Shown piece after piece: positions 13,614 through 57,040 of a stretch of DNA of 64,000 nucleotides. The notes under the pieces are model-generated. The model ran no database searches, was not told the DNA's origin, and saw nothing but the letters and a program-made list of their open reading frames with translations. Origin of the DNA: Shouchella rhizosphaerae (lineage in GTDB: Bacteria > Bacillota > Bacilli > Bacillales > Bacillaceae_D); contig NZ_FRBS01000007.1 of the NCBI RefSeq assembly GCF_900142675.1, forward strand, positions 124,001 through 188,000, in the 5' to 3' direction. Position 1 is the first letter of the stretch; each line of letters starts with the position of its first letter. A program made the position numbers and the translations under genes.

Positions 13614-16001
13614 TTGAAAAAAGCGCGTGCATTAAGCGGACGTAAAACGATGTATATGAGTGCGCTGTCTCTTTGTATGGTGGCAAGCTCTGTACCGGTT
13701 GTGCCCCAGTTGGCAATCGCTGAAAGGGGCGAGGCGCAATCGCTCTTTTTAGCTGATGAGATTGATTTGGCCAGTAAAGAAGACGTTTCGGTTATTGTCG
13801 AGTTTGATGAACTTCCAGAACAAGTGGCCCTTGCTGTTTCGAAAGAGCTTGAAGACGATTTGACAGAGGAAGAAGCACGGGAAAATGTAGAAGAATCGCA
13901 TGAGCAATTTAAAGAAACATTGGCCGATGTGCTAGATACGTCCGAGAACGCTTCTTCTTATGTAGAACGGGAATATACGACCATTTTTAATGGAGTTTCT
14001 GTAAACTTGCCAGCAAACAAAGTGGAAGAATTGCTTGAACGTGAAGGCGTAAAAGCGATTTATAGCAATGATGTCATTGAGTTAATCAAGCCTGTTGAGG
14101 AAAAGGCCGTTGATGAGCCTGTGGAAGCAATGATGGTCGACAGCATTCCTTTCCTCGGTGTTCATGAGCTCCATGAACAAGGACTGAAAGGAGCAGGTGT
14201 AAAAGTCGGTGTTATTGATACAGGCATTGACTACGAACATCCAGATTTAAAAGCTGTATACAAAGGCGGTTATGACTTTGTCGACGATGATGACGACCCA
14301 ATGGAAGCGACTTATGAGGACTGGAAAAACTCGGGAATGCCAGAATTTAATGCAAATGGAAGCTCCTATTATACGAGCCATGGCACACATGTCTCCGGTA
14401 CCGTGGCAGGAACAGGAGAAAATGATTCAGAATATGCTGTCACTGGCGTCGCCCCTGAAGTCGATTTGTATGCCTATCGTGTCCTCGGCCCGTATGGCTC
14501 CGGAACAACGGCTGATGTCATTGCTGGCATTGAGCAATCCGTAATGGATGGCATGGATGTGATCAATCTATCACTCGGAAACAATGCCAACGATCCAATA
14601 GCACCGACGAGCATAGCAACAAACAATGCTACCTTGGCTGGAGTGACGGTTGTGACATCAGCTGGAAACAATGGCCGTAATGGGCTCGGCACAGTAGGCG
14701 CTCCTGGGGCAGCAGCATTGCCTATTTCTGTAGGGGCAAGCAATGTTTCTCTTACGATCCCTGAATTTTCGAGTACGTATCAATTAGGAGAGGAAGAGCT
14801 GACAGGCGACCTCCGTGTCATTGCCGAATCGTTTACAGGCAACCTAGAGGATTTCAGCAACCAAACGCTTGAGCTAGTTGATGCCGGGCTTGGTACCGTT
14901 GCAGAATTTGAACAAGTAGACGTAAGCGGAAAAGTCGCTTTTGTGATTCGTGGCGAACTTGCATTTGTTGATAAAATTGCAAACGCTAAAGCAGCAGGAG
15001 CAGAGGCAATCATTATTTATAACAATCTTCCAGGGGATGGCCATAATCCGATCTATGCTGGTGCGGGCCACAACTATGTCCCTAGTTTTTCTTTAACTTA
15101 TGAGGACGGAGAGGCGATCGCTTCATTATTGGAAGATGGGGCAACAGTAACATTTGGCGAAATGAGTGGAAGCGTGACGACCGGTGATTTGCTAGCCGAT
15201 TTTAGTTCACGGGGGCCGGTCAACTACACAGCGGCAATTAAACCGGAAGTTGTTGCCCCTGGGGTCGATGTCCATTCTACCGTACCAAGCTATATGGCAG
15301 GACCGGAGTTCACTGGCGATTATGAGTTTGCTTATCGACGCTCGTCCGGTACGTCGATGGCTTCCCCTCACGTGGCCGGGGTTGCGGCACTCATGATTCA
15401 AGCCAATCCAGAACAGACACCTGCGGACATCAAGACCAAATTAATGAATACGGCTGTGCCAATGACAGAGGAATACAATGTGTTTGAAATAGGGGCAGGC
15501 CGGATCAACCCAGTGGCTGCGATTGAATCAACGGTCATGATTCAGGCATCGATTGACAGTTACCACGTCGAGGACGACCTTTTAGCCTTGATTCAAGACA
15601 AAACAGGCGGGTTAAGCTTTGGTTTCGTTAGTACGGATGCAGGCAATATCCGGGAACGTCACAGCCTACGCTTGACAAATAGCGGTACTGAAGCAAAGAC
15701 ATTCAATGTACATGCATCCTTCCACACTGCCAATGGAACGCTTCCTGCCGGAGAGAATGGCCTTACTCTGCAAACCAATTCAACGATTACGGTGCCAGCA
15801 GGCGAGACAGTCGAGAACAATGCCTTTCTCATTGCACCGAAAACGGCAGCAGAAGGGTTGTACGGAGGGTATATGACGTTGACAAACGTCGCTGACCAAA
15901 GTGAAGTATATCGAATTCCGTTTGGCACGTATGTTTCAGAAGAAGCATTGGTTGCGCAACCAATTGGCACGCCTGTCTATGCTTTCGATTTTGCATCTTA
16001 A
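13614..16001 (+). CDS. vpr: Vpr-like subtilisin-family extracellular serine protease
   Basis: A 795-residue secreted S8 protease. A signal peptide (~1-40) is followed by an inhibitor-I9-type propeptide. The catalytic domain has Asp in VGVIDTGIDYEHPD, His in SHGTHVSGTVAG and Ser in SGTSMASPHVAG. A protease-associated (PA) domain is inserted between His and Ser (about 390-520), and a Fn3-like C-terminal region follows. This order matches B. subtilis Vpr (806 residues), a minor extracellular and cell-wall-associated protease. TTG 13614 has AAAGGGTG seven bases upstream; the frame to 13446 adds 56 non-signal-like codons. It is followed by sipW and tasA, with a terminator between vpr and sipW. Confidence 0.9.
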   Translation: MKKARALSGRKTMYMSALSLCMVASSVPVVPQLAIAERGEAQSLFLADEIDLASKEDVSVIVEFDELPEQVALAVSKELEDDLTEEEARENVEESHEQFKETLADVLDTSENASSYVEREYTTIFNGVSVNLPANKVEELLEREGVKAIYSNDVIELIKPVEEKAVDEPVEAMMVDSIPFLGVHELHEQGLKGAGVKVGVIDTGIDYEHPDLKAVYKGGYDFVDDDDDPMEATYEDWKNSGMPEFNANGSSYYTSHGTHVSGTVAGTGENDSEYAVTGVAPEVDLYAYRVLGPYGSGTTADVIAGIEQSVMDGMDVINLSLGNNANDPIAPTSIATNNATLAGVTVVTSAGNNGRNGLGTVGAPGAAALPISVGASNVSLTIPEFSSTYQLGEEELTGDLRVIAESFTGNLEDFSNQTLELVDAGLGTVAEFEQVDVSGKVAFVIRGELAFVDKIANAKAAGAEAIIIYNNLPGDGHNPIYAGAGHNYVPSFSLTYEDGEAIASLLEDGATVTFGEMSGSVTTGDLLADFSSRGPVNYTAAIKPEVVAPGVDVHSTVPSYMAGPEFTGDYEFAYRRSSGTSMASPHVAGVAALMIQANPEQTPADIKTKLMNTAVPMTEEYNVFEIGAGRINPVAAIESTVMIQASIDSYHVEDDLLALIQDKTGGLSFGFVSTDAGNIRERHSLRLTNSGTEAKTFNVHASFHTANGTLPAGENGLTLQTNSTITVPAGETVENNAFLIAPKTAAEGLYGGYMTLTNVADQSEVYRIPFGTYVSEEALVAQPIGTPVYAFDFAS

Positions 16002-16002
16002 T

Positions 16003-16026
16003 AAAGAAGGGGGGTCCCCTTTTTTT
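16003..16026 (+). terminator. Terminator between vpr and sipW
   Basis: AAGGGG and CCCCTT pair around GGT, followed by seven T. It lies directly after the vpr stop and 18 bases before the sipW start, so sipW-tasA would depend on readthrough or an unseen promoter. Confidence 0.75.
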
Positions 16027-16044
16027 GAGGAAGCTGGTTTATTT

Positions 16045-16575
16045 ATGGTCAACATGTGGATAACAATCGGAAAATTGGCGATTACCGGGATTGCATCGTT
16101 TTTGTTCTTCCTCGTTCTCTTTTTTGTCCTTCAAGGAAAGGGCAGTGACGGCAGAGGACCTGAGCTGTTTGGCTGGACAAGCTATACCATCTTGTCCAAC
16201 AGCATGGAGCCGACATTTTCCGCCGGAGATGTGGTCATCATGAAAAAGAATGAGGAGCCTAGCATTGGCGATGTTGTAACGTTTATGGCTCCTGAACGGC
16301 GCTTGTTCACACACCGGATTGTTGAGAAGTTTGAAAGCAATGGAAAGACGTATTATAAGACGCAAGGCGATAACAACAACGTTGTAGACGAAGACCCAAT
16401 CGTAAAAGAACAAATTGTCGGCACCCATATGTTCACCATTCCTAAAGTTGGTTTAGTTGCTGAAAAAATCAATCAACCAATTGGTTATGGTTTGTTGATT
16501 GTCGTGCCGATTGCTGGGTATTTGCTGTTATCGTTCTACGAAACCATCCAAAAAAAACGCAAGGAGGCTTCTTGA
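16045..16575 (+). CDS. sipW: Signal peptidase I, SipW (ER-type)
   Basis: A 176-residue membrane signal peptidase. One N-terminal segment (KLAITGIASFLFFLVLFFVL) and a C-terminal one (PIGYGLLIVVPIAGYLLLSFY) flank the catalytic part. The nucleophile is Ser in ILSNSMEPTFSAGD. Instead of the bacterial Lys, a His (FTHRIVEKF) stands at the base position, with DED further on. This is the ER/archaeal-type Ser-His arrangement typical of SipW, which matures TasA-type proteins. GAGGAAG precedes ATG 16045 by 11 bases. The stop overlaps the tasA start (TGATG), so SipW and its substrate are translationally coupled. Confidence 0.93.
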   Translation: MVNMWITIGKLAITGIASFLFFLVLFFVLQGKGSDGRGPELFGWTSYTILSNSMEPTFSAGDVVIMKKNEEPSIGDVVTFMAPERRLFTHRIVEKFESNGKTYYKTQGDNNNVVDEDPIVKEQIVGTHMFTIPKVGLVAEKINQPIGYGLLIVVPIAGYLLLSFYETIQKKRKEAS

Positions 16576-17276
16576 TGAAAAAGGTAAAATCATTGAAATT
16601 AGCCATGATCGCTACAGCTTTTGTAGGAGCGTTAGTTATTGTTCTCGGCTCAGGAGGGTCGTTTTCATGGTTTACAGGGGAAACGTCTGCTACTGGGGAA
16701 ATTAAAAATGGAACGCTGGAAATTAACCATGGCGAGGACATTGACGGCAACATCGTTCAAGCGGAAAGTTTTGCTCCTTCACAGCTAATCTTTGGCGATT
16801 GGCTCTCAATTGAAAATACAGGCACCCTTGACACTCATTTGCAAGCAACCTATGACCACTCTGTCGACTTGAATGTACCCATCGATGCGTATAAAGTTGG
16901 CTACATTGCGATTAAGTATACAACAACGCCAGGCAGGGATGTGTATGAAGATGCACAATATAAGTTAGACCAATTGTTTAATGGCATTACTAATGAAGTT
17001 CAGTCTTTTTCACATACGGCCGAGGCAAATGGCGTTGAAGTTGTAGCTGCCTTAATTGATGAACAAGCTTATGACGAAAATGCTGATCAGTTTGTGCTTG
17101 GCGATGGCAGCTTGCAAGGACCTGACAACGAATTTTGGCAATTGGATGAAGGCCAATACATTGATCTTAATTTTGGCGTGAAATTAGACGAGAATGCAGG
17201 CAATGAATACCAAGGAGCTGTTTATACTGCTTCACTTGAAGTATTAGCCAAGCAAACAGACCAAGGCGCGAAATAA
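16575..17276 (+). CDS. tasA: TasA/CalY-family amyloid fibre protein
   Basis: A 233-residue secreted protein of the TasA/camelysin family (Peptidase M73 in databases). The N-terminus (KLAMIATAFVGALVIVLGS) and the following SWFTGETSATGEIKNGTLEI match the SipW-cleaved start of TasA/CalY. The middle LIFGDWLSIENTGTLDTHL and the C-terminal NEYQGAVYTASLEV are also family-like. These proteins form biofilm-matrix fibres and occur on spores. AAGGAGG is seven bases before ATG 16575. TapA, the fibre anchor of B. subtilis, is not encoded here. The perfect hairpin after the stop has been separated from its T-run by an inserted element (17315-17453). Confidence 0.9.
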   Translation: MKKVKSLKLAMIATAFVGALVIVLGSGGSFSWFTGETSATGEIKNGTLEINHGEDIDGNIVQAESFAPSQLIFGDWLSIENTGTLDTHLQATYDHSVDLNVPIDAYKVGYIAIKYTTTPGRDVYEDAQYKLDQLFNGITNEVQSFSHTAEANGVEVVAALIDEQAYDENADQFVLGDGSLQGPDNEFWQLDEGQYIDLNFGVKLDENAGNEYQGAVYTASLEVLAKQTDQGAK

Positions 17277-17288
17277 TTTAGTCAGTGG

Positions 17289-17314
17289 AGGTTGTCGGCA
17301 TTTGCCGACAACCT
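17289..17314 (+). terminator. tasA terminator stem, apparently split by an insertion
   Basis: AGGTTGTCGGCA and TGCCGACAACCT form a perfect 12-bp stem with a TT loop but no T-run follows. TTTGCCGACAACCT occurs again at 17454-17467 and there is followed by ATTTTTTG, so the original terminator probably read straight from stem to T-run. Confidence 0.6.
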
Positions 17315-17453
17315 CAGACTGTAGACAAACGCTCGCATACTTCGTCGTTTGCCTCACTCATATGCTCATGAACCCCCGTTCTATTCGCATCTTCCCTCGG
17401 CTGCACTCCTCGTCTGACAAGCGTTTTCTATCAGTCTGATTGCGGTTAGCGAC
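17315..17453. repeat. MITE-like repeat element, copy A
   Basis: The first 18 bases (17315-17332, CAGACTGTAGACAAACGC) are nearly the inverse of 17421-17438 (GCGTTTTCTATCAGTCTG): terminal inverted repeats. The 139-base stretch is flanked by the 14-bp direct repeat TTTGCCGACAACCT (17301-17314 and 17454-17467). Fifteen bases lie between the right inverted repeat and the right direct repeat, which leaves the exact boundary unsure. It codes for nothing. A related copy lies at 56887. Confidence 0.65.
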
Positions 17454-17497
17454 TTTGCCGACAACCTATTTTTTGTTGTCTACTAAAACAGAAATTC

Positions 17498-18028
17498 CTA
17501 TTTTGCTGGTTGATAAAGGTAGCAGCCTTGTTCATGGCTGTTGACTAAGCCAGCAGCTTCCATAAAAGACTGGCAAGTGGTTGGCCCAACAAAGGCCATA
17601 CCAGCAGATTTTAACGCTTTGCTTAGCGCTATAGCTTGTTCGGAAAGGTTGTCCTGTTTATTTGGAGCAAAGGACCAGATAAAACGGGCAAAGGAGCCAT
17701 GCTCGTTTGCAAGTTTACGAGCTACAGCCGCATTTGTAAGAATGGCACGGATTTTTCCTTCATGGCGAATGATCGCTTTCATTTCTTTTAAGCGCGCCAC
17801 ATCTTCTTCTGTAAAACGGGCCAATGACTCCCAGTTAAAGCTAGCGAATGCTGTTCGGAGCGCATCTCGTTTTTTTAAGACAGTTAGCCAGCTTAATCCT
17901 GATTGCATAAGCTCTAACATAAGCATTTCAAATAGCTGTTGGTCGTCATAAGTAGGGCGCCCCCATTCGCTATCATGGTAGTGCTCGTAGAGGGGGCTGT
18001 TACTTACCCAACTACAACGCTTTGGCAT
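17498..18028 (-). CDS. tag: DNA-3-methyladenine glycosylase I
   Basis: A 176-residue Tag glycosylase that removes 3-methyladenine from alkylated DNA. The zinc ligands are all present: Cys in RCSWV near the N-terminus, His in YHDSEWG, and the C-terminal His-x3-Cys (NSHEQGCY). The helix-hairpin-helix part and the substrate-pocket Glu in FEMLMLELMQSGLSW are intact, followed by TVLKKRDALR. Size fits the family (E. coli 187). GAGGAGG precedes ATG 18028. It lies 39 bases after tenA on the same strand with no terminator between, so it may be in the tenA transcript. Confidence 0.94.
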   Translation of the reverse strand: MPKRCSWVSNSPLYEHYHDSEWGRPTYDDQQLFEMLMLELMQSGLSWLTVLKKRDALRTAFASFNWESLARFTEEDVARLKEMKAIIRHEGKIRAILTNAAVARKLANEHGSFARFIWSFAPNKQDNLSEQAIALSKALKSAGMAFVGPTTCQSFMEAAGLVNSHEQGCYLYQPAK

Positions 18029-18067
18029 AGGAACCTCCTCATATTTGAACGATAAGCCGGAGCACTG

Positions 18068-18742
18068 TTAATAAGCAACCGGCCATTTTTCTTTTACATA
18101 AGCCATTTCCCAAAAACTATACTCTAGTTGACAGCTTTTTAAAAAATGGTCTTGCATCCGTTCTTTTTCTTGTTCGGTAGCATGTGCCGCAAGCTCGTCG
18201 AGGCGTTTACAAAATTGTTTCGTTACCCCCATTTCTCCGTTTGAGCGGTAAAAGGAAATCCAGTCGAAAAATGGATGGTTCGCTTTTGGCTGGAACGTTT
18301 CGTACAAATAGTCGCCGATCGCTTGGTATGTCCACGGACAAGGCAGAAGCACAGCCAATATTTCGGCGAGAGAACCACGGTGGGCGACATCAAGCATGTG
18401 GCGTGTATAGTGGTGGGCAGTTGGGGCGAGAGGCTCATATTGCAAATCTTCATAGCGGACGCCTGCCACCTTGCAAAAATTATGGTGAGGGTGTGTTTCA
18501 CTGTGCAAAATAAAGCCAATTTGTTCCGCGAACATCGCCATGTCTTCGCGGTTTTCGCACCGGCTAATAGCAATGCCGTATATTTGCATAAACGTATTTA
18601 AGTATTCAAAATCTTGTTTGACGTAGTGAATAAGGGAATCTGCGGGCAACGAGCCTTTGCCAATACCTTGTACAAACGGATGGCTAAATATGGCTTTGTA
18701 AATCGGGTCGGCGGTTTTGCGAAGTTCGGCAGTAAAACTCAT
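18068..18742 (-). CDS. tenA: Aminopyrimidine aminohydrolase / thiaminase II (TenA)
   Basis: A 224-residue TenA protein. In bacilli it hydrolyses aminomethyl-aminomethylpyrimidine from degraded thiamin to HMP, salvaging vitamin B1. Visible are FSHPFVQGIGKGSLP, the acidic FEYLNTF near the active site, the catalytic Cys in LLPCPWTYQAIG and the C-terminal Glu in LEYSFWEMAY. ATG 18742 follows AAAGGAGGAG; the frame continues upstream only into the riboswitch. No other thi gene is adjacent, although in many bacilli tenA heads tenI-thiOSGF. A TPP riboswitch at 18826-18910 controls it. Confidence 0.94.
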   Translation of the reverse strand: MSFTAELRKTADPIYKAIFSHPFVQGIGKGSLPADSLIHYVKQDFEYLNTFMQIYGIAISRCENREDMAMFAEQIGFILHSETHPHHNFCKVAGVRYEDLQYEPLAPTAHHYTRHMLDVAHRGSLAEILAVLLPCPWTYQAIGDYLYETFQPKANHPFFDWISFYRSNGEMGVTKQFCKRLDELAAHATEQEKERMQDHFLKSCQLEYSFWEMAYVKEKWPVAY

Positions 18743-56865: not shown

Positions 56866-56886
56866 GGGGCGTGTGCACGCCCCTTT
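56866..56886 (+). terminator. mrp operon terminator
   Basis: GGGGCGTG and CACGCCCC form a perfect stem around two bases, then TTTAG. The T-run is short. A repeat element begins directly after it. Confidence 0.65.
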
Positions 56887-57040
56887 AGACTGTAGACAAA
56901 CGCCCCGATCCACTAGCGTTTGTCTCGGTCAGCTGCTTTGAACTGAACAATCGTTTCCTATGCAAGGTGACCCCTGTTCTATTCGCCTCTTTTCTCGCCT
57001 TCACTTATCGGCTGACAAGTGTTTAAATGAATCTAGCGTT
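56887..57040. repeat. MITE-like repeat element, copy B
   Basis: It shares with copy A the 17-base start AGACTGTAGACAAACGC (56887-56903), the core GTTCTATTCGC (56976-56986; copy A 17378-17388) and CTGACAAG with following TTT (57012). Its right end (GTGTTTAAATGAATCTA) is a degenerate inverse of its left end. It has ~23 extra internal bases relative to A. It sits directly after an operon terminator, as A does. No coding sequence. Confidence 0.6.

Follow-up and report, generated by a model that had tools for sequence, protein, structure and literature searches.

A geneless IS1182-type MITE between the tasA hairpin and its T-run in Shouchella rhizosphaerae, and whole-hairpin target duplication in its family

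Results

The DNA analyzed here (the window) is a stretch of 64,000 nucleotides from Shouchella rhizosphaerae (genome G000), in which a sipW-like and a tasA-like gene are followed by a hairpin, a short geneless element and a convergent tag gene. The features are listed below with the evidence for each.

15901..16575, + strand: sipW-like signal peptidase ORF, upstream of tasA (NCBIfam and Pfam profile matches)
16572..17276, + strand: tasA-like gene, whose terminator is the one hit (Pfam Peptidase_M73)
17289..17314, + strand: original tasA terminator hairpin, the target, here without its T-run (same 26 bp in the empty alleles of G001, G010 and G011)
17315..17467, + strand: IS1182-type MITE, geneless, 153 bases in the window copy (own-genome matches, consensus, and absence at the same place in three relatives)
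17315..17329, + strand: left terminal inverted repeat of the MITE, CAGACTGTAGACAAA (near-identical ends on the IS1182-family IS of G001; same 15 bases in ISEfa7)
17444..17467, + strand: hairpin at the element's right end, a probable fusion with the lost right copy of the target hairpin (copy comparison, folding)
17468..17475, + strand: ATTTTTTG, the tasA terminator's original T-run, which lies 153 bases beyond the stem here (adjoins the stem in G001)
17498..18028, - strand: tag, DNA-3-methyladenine glycosylase I, convergent (Pfam PF03352, TIGR00624)
56866..57024, + strand: second, decayed copy of the same MITE family (hairpin 56866-56883, left end from 56886, body piece 56970-57024)

The names tasA and sipW stand for family matches of moderate strength. 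The sipW-like ORF scored 113 bits against the NCBIfam SipW model NF046067 (under its cut-off of 190) and 102.6 bits against TIGR02228 (above cut-off), with a Pfam S26 match too. The tasA-like gene scored 26.8 bits against Pfam Peptidase_M73 (cut-off 22.5), and the NCBIfam search returned no match for it; tasA homologues were present in 12 of the 13 genomes of the genus. The tag gene scored 207 bits against PF03352 and 185 bits against TIGR00624 (under the cut-off of 232.5). A search of window positions 16000-18500 against Rfam 15 gave zero matches up to E 1, and nothing in a promoter scan of the tasA region exceeded shuffled sequences.

Behind tasA, the stem at 17289-17314 (AGGTTGTCGGCA / TGCCGACAACCT) is perfect over 12 bp, and the fold of 17285-17320 has an energy of -24.1 kcal/mol (z -7.2). 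The 14-mer TTTGCCGACAACCT has two copies 139 bases apart, 17301-17314 and 17454-17467, and only the second is directly followed by ATTTTTTG. The intervening segment opens at 17315 with CAGACTGTAGACAAACGC, a near-inverse of 17421-17438. The preliminary description of this DNA had reported the perfect stem without a T-run, the recurring 14-mer followed by ATTTTTTG and the near-inverse left end, and a check of the sequence agrees with each. It had read the arrangement as a non-autonomous mobile element that split the tasA stem from its T-run and duplicated 14 bp of target, with fifteen unexplained bases at the right edge.

The genome-wide search that it had proposed found many further copies. With 17289-17467 as query, the own genome gave at least 45 match rows at E 0.001 or better (73-100% identity) with the best 40 of 112 candidates scored, some rows being pieces of one copy and one a palindrome matching itself; 29 of the 45 begin at query bases 24-27 (window 17312-17315). 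Matches were found in at least six of the 13 genus genomes, the own genome among them; with at most 40 candidates scored in each genome, the counts of this search are lower bounds. Allowing one mismatch at most, the 18-base left end was counted 39 times in G000, 65 in G001, 63 in G010, 69 in G011 and 9 in G008; overall it was found in 11 of 60 genomes, and its reversed control in none. These short dispersed copies without a transposase gene, together with the likeness of the ends to IS1182-family elements (below), identify 17315-17467 as an IS1182-type MITE, and the mobile, non-autonomous character proposed earlier is thereby borne out by a dispersed family. The family consensus, built from 51 other near-complete copies, is 154 bases long and ends in TTTGyCGACAACCT(C/T), so the element extends beyond 17438. 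By this consensus, the fifteen bases described as unexplained are the element's own right end. So is the right-hand 14-mer, and the supposed 14-bp target duplication gives way to a different unit, normally the whole hairpin (which would be 26 bp at this site).

The decayed copy elsewhere in the window consists of the hairpin GGGGCGTGTGCACGCCCC, then TAGACTGTAGACAAACG, and a body piece 82% identical. At 18 further loci of the own genome (L063-L079 and L057) the left end alone was seen; about 14 of the 18, judged by eye, have it right after a hairpin, many with an A-run in front. Such left-end-only loci may be decayed copies that retain the terminator of a neighbouring gene.

We compared the tasA site with one genome per species, that is, with other species of the genus. 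In G001 (tasA 99% identical to that of G000), the stop codon is followed by 12 bases, by AGGTTGTCGGCATTTGCCGACAACCT and then directly by ATTTTTTGTTGTCTACTAA, the stem running straight into ATTTTTTG with the element absent. G010 and G011 (tasA 98% identical) have the same 26-bp hairpin followed by TGTTTGTTGCC, again without the element, and the more distant species displayed have unrelated sequence behind tasA. The empty site predicted by the preliminary description thus exists in three relatives, in agreement with its view that the element splits the stem from the T-run. That description had also named two outcomes that would speak against it, the same arrangement in every strain and the lack of further copies; among the genomes compared, one per species, neither was seen. 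As a side observation, the hairpin in the tasA 3' regions of G001, G010 and G011 (L111, L113 and L112, respectively) aligns with the right-end hairpin of the element.

We then searched the three relatives with the joined flanks of seven other occupied sites. A contiguous match with one hairpin was present in at least one relative at six of the seven: in 3/3 relatives for L163 and L012, in 2/3 for L166, and in G001 only for L009, L015 and L017. At L173, the joined-flank search gave an empty allele in none of the relatives. With tasA included, empty alleles were found at 7/8 sites. At L017, which is occupied in G000 and empty in G001, about 150 bases interrupt the matches in G010 and G011, and those genomes probably carry the element there too; at L015, several kilobases separate the flanks in these two genomes. 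The patterns at L015 and L017 point to loss or exchange of the element at some sites. Since G001 is closer to G000 by tasA than are G010 and G011, its empty L017 site suggests that exact loss may also happen.

The target-site rule was derived from 80 stretches, namely the window and 79 loci, 40 of which came from relatives and were picked as high-scoring full-length matches. Both element ends were present in 52 stretches; the remaining 28 were incomplete and left unscored, and in several of these decayed stretches the left side alone has a hairpin (e.g., L019, L020 and L023). The target hairpin flanks both sides in 51 of the 52 near-complete copies, 45 of them scored and six, with gaps or mismatches in the repeats, by eye (L015, L165, L170, L180, L201 and L202). 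The sole near-complete copy without a second hairpin is the one in the window. Some of the 52 copies represent the same site in different genomes, and the number of distinct hairpins is 43. In 35 of 37 distinct scored duplications (all except L171 and L198), both edges fall within 2 bp of independently found hairpin edges, and in 32 within 1 bp. An end-to-end stem of at least 7 bp is present in 40/45 scored MITE duplications (exceptions, L011, L169, L171, L189 and L200), compared with 0.33% of random segments of the same length, a pool that includes real ones, and 0/405 segments shifted by 3-11 bp within the same flanks. The duplications measure 21-31 bp in MITE copies and 21-35 bp in IS copies, tracking the hairpin; a MITE with a constant short target duplication is ruled out by these lengths.

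Among the 43 distinct sites, 32 lie within 130 bases of an open frame (at least 45 codons) ending towards the site, and 21 have such a frame on both sides. Scored by a simple rule, 27 sites have an A-run and/or a T-run, and 16 have neither, the window being wrongly counted among these. "Terminator" is therefore a weaker description of the target than "hairpin": the hairpin is the constant feature of target sites and the T-run a common one.

A candidate source of transposase was found in G001. NCBIfam model NF033551 (IS1182 family) matches intact genes there, and the transposase, with DUF772 and DDE domains, scores 483 bits (cut-off 270). In G001, five elements, 1536-1537 bp long, are bounded on both sides by CAGACCGTAGACAAA, CAGCCTGTCGACAAA or sequences close to these, which resemble the left (TAG) and right (TCG) ends of the MITE. 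Four of the five are flanked by exact hairpin duplications of 21-28 bp, and L091 by none. A PDB search with the transposase gave no solved relative (best E 0.93). In G000, the model matches seven pieces; the IS pieces are a stretch of about 550 bases at 76% identity, two of about 250 bases at 84%, and shorter ones, no intact copy being seen, and following the partial matches revealed no long autonomous copy in the stretches looked at. The assembly consists of 13 contigs, and all seven NF033551 pieces lie at contig ends (C2, C4, C5, C7, C9, C10 and C12), where breaks in the assembly may conceal intact copies. Because no intact matching IS was seen in G000, the helper transposase is taken from G001: the ends and target behaviour of the MITE match those of the autonomous elements, which suggests that it was mobilized by an IS1182-family transposase.

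Hairpin duplication recurred in other genomes: in 8/9 copies of G045 (none at L148), in 7/9 copies looked at in G022 (L155 imperfect, L154 masked) and in a Sutcliffiella horikoshii plasmid copy, where a 30-bp hairpin is duplicated. The copies of G037 are cut by contig ends, and both of those displayed have a hairpin at the visible end. It was not found in the G016 and G017 stretches or in Staphylococcus and Escherichia coli plasmid elements. As a separate observation, an ISCfr1 copy on an E. coli plasmid (L267) is flanked by the 9-bp direct repeat CGGCCGATT, which contains the palindrome CGGCCG.

In a survey of 299 genomes of the phylum, 190 match NF033551, 51 of them above cut-off. Nine of the 30 loci taken show hairpin duplication (eight plain, 22-35 bp, and L259 imperfect) by an exact-repeat search, which would miss decayed duplications. 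In a transposase tree made by a quick method (44 rows), the hairpin-duplicating phylum rows cluster with the G001 element, except L255, and no duplication is seen in the other 21 rows of the outer part, a Staphylococcus haemolyticus element and a second G001 type among them. The labels change eight times on the tree, compared with a mean of 13.2 for shuffled labels (0/500 as low), a count that includes L124, a wrong frame labelled hairpin. Seven unlabelled rows sit amid the hairpin-duplicating ones (L091, L160, L236, L239, L240, L246 and L264); six of them keep a hairpin at an end, L240 having two different ones. L255 (G293), with a 31-bp hairpin duplication, branches elsewhere in the IS1182 transposase tree, so hairpin duplication may have had more than one origin or have been retained in more than one lineage.

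What distinguishes the window copy is its right end. The last bases are TTTGCCGACAACCT, at whose C the other near-complete copies have T in 48/51 and C in 3/51; it also has G where 51/51 others have T, a change that weakens the end hairpin. The stretch 17440-17476 folds at only -5.2 kcal/mol (z -0.31), which is no improvement on shuffled sequences, compared with -9.7 for the family's right-end hairpin. Aligned along its full length, the tasA hairpin scores 16 against the right-end hairpin of the element; the 42 other target hairpins score at most 12, and 10 of 20,000 shuffled hairpins reach 16 (best, 19). An ordinary insertion at tasA would be expected to place the element end ahead of a hairpin copy and hence to carry TTTGyCGACAACCT twice, about 27 bases apart; deletion between these repeats would merge the right target copy with the element end and part the tasA stem from its T-run. 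Most likely, then, the right-hand hairpin copy fused with the similar right end of the element, a single-copy case favoured by the resemblance of the two hairpins. Given fusion, the 14-mer seems to be mostly element sequence. The tasA hairpin is common to G000, G001, G010 and G011 and is therefore older than this insertion; the tasA terminator may itself be a captured older element end.

The empty allele folds at -20.4 kcal/mol with six U behind, and the terminator scan that picks up the tasA terminator in G001 does not do so in the window. It is plausible, on this modelling, that sipW-tasA transcripts run through the element. A long fold of 17285-17476 reaches -64.3 kcal/mol, 4.3 kcal/mol better than the fold that keeps the local left hairpin; in it the left arm pairs with the right one ahead of the T-run, and termination at the old T-run would be possible.

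Discussion

We consider it very probable that 17315-17467 is a MITE mobilized by a hairpin-targeting branch of the IS1182-family DDE transposases and that the right-hand copy of the tasA hairpin later collapsed into the element's end. The proposed branch would use DNA hairpins, often intrinsic terminators, as targets, and the transposase would join the two ends of the element to the hairpin at its 5' feet, one on each strand. Filling in of the single-stranded hairpin on each side would then copy the entire hairpin, the outcome seen in our collection, and would leave the length of the duplication to the target, as in the 21-35 bp observed. For rightward transcripts, the right hairpin copy would keep the T-run, and for leftward transcripts, the left copy would keep the A-run. 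If the terminator can survive in this way, insertion may be nearly neutral.

Other readings of the tasA site concern its history. The window copy might never have had a right-hand hairpin, no duplication having been made because the element entered at the hairpin's 3' foot or because repair failed. The window shows none, and the published IS1272 and TnSha1, as far as the available text of PMC5678879 and PMC4923244 goes, leave none; since the other 51 near-complete copies have both hairpins, and IS1272 removes the hairpin that is intact on the window's left, we regard this as improbable. To a similarly low degree we credit the possibility that the occupied allele is ancestral and that precise deletion between the 14-mers produced the empty ones. 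Recombination of 17301-17314 with 17454-17467 would yield the exact G001 sequence, and L017, present in G000 and apparently in G010 and G011 and absent from G001, suggests exact loss; yet all three close relatives are empty at tasA, G010 and G011 are slightly more distant, and one insertion is simpler than repeated exact deletions. Their emptiness favours insertion at tasA without proving it.

The nature of the repeats is less in question. If the conserved 18-mer beside hairpins were part of a functional terminator or antisense signal, its persistence at some 14 of 18 decayed loci would be explained; the empty alleles at most sites tested, the like ends on transposase-bearing elements and the duplicated targets make this very unlikely. 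Least credible, to the point of being negligible, is that the hairpins on both sides are cargo of the element: their pairing in nearly every near-complete copy fits, but their sequences vary by site (37 distinct ones scored) and the empty allele holds one copy. We retain duplication of the target hairpin, followed at tasA by a probable fusion.

Replacement of a stem-loop in the manner of IS1272 agrees with the hairpin target and is ruled out by hairpins that are kept and duplicated. The nearest known relative is ISEfa7, whose branch shares the NF033551 transposase model and the terminal repeat CAGACTGTAGACAAA. The ISEfa7 and G001 transposases share 59% identity, and the MITE's left end is the same as the 15-base ends of ISEfa7; unlike ISEfa7, the 154-bp element is geneless, and the single ISEfa7 copy examined has a hairpin on the right side only. 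A Staphylococcus haemolyticus IS1182 transposase, which may not be that of IS1272, is 24.5% identical over 39%. Among other elements that adjoin hairpins, group IIC introns, which encode a reverse transcriptase, insert behind terminators and make no duplication, and REP-targeting IS elements insert at or beside hairpins, their REP targets being one repeated sequence.

Some IS1182 members target palindromes (Siguier et al., as cited in the available text of PMC5678879 and PMC4923244). According to the same portions of these two papers, IS1272 (IS1182 family) and TnSha1 resemble our elements in targeting hairpins, often terminators, of no fixed sequence; IS1272 differs in that it replaces the hairpin and duplicates none, where here the whole hairpin is duplicated (PMC5678879; PMC4923244). 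The window copy shows no duplication and yet keeps its left hairpin, unlike IS1272-type removal. Wan et al. drew whole-hairpin duplication as a hypothetical pathway b, with no case given in the text available (PMC5678879). MITEPye1 is likewise an IS1182-type MITE with intergenic copies, unlike ours with 1-3 copies per chromosome, 4-bp direct repeats and no hairpin target mentioned in the portion available (PMC11578231). The IS1182-family ISPse1 also differs, being listed with 4-bp repeats and, in the accessible part, without mention of a hairpin target (PMC3281130), and the available text of a review of bacterial MITEs leaves IS1182 unmentioned (PMC10969869). Our literature search, which covered titles and abstract starts, with most subscription journals and ISfinder outside it, found no paper on whole-terminator duplication, so the phenomenon may be recorded elsewhere. 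As far as these partial sources go, hairpin targeting with hairpin loss is known from IS1272.

The prediction for S. rhizosphaerae is that the 3' end of the sipW-tasA message would be changed relative to its nearest relatives. For the family, we lean, by a modest margin, towards a broader view, in which a widespread DDE transposase branch gauges the target by the shape of the DNA, with the hairpin feet as joining points; duplications would then have no fixed length, each insertion would rebuild the terminator it hits, and the element ends would have become terminators in turn. If this is true, terminators are self-repairing landing sites, which would help to explain how elements of this kind can build up dozens of copies with little harm. 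The dataset supplies many natural whole-hairpin duplications, some with empty sites, and makes strand transfer at hairpin feet directly testable. It also shows how mobile DNA can displace or create terminators.
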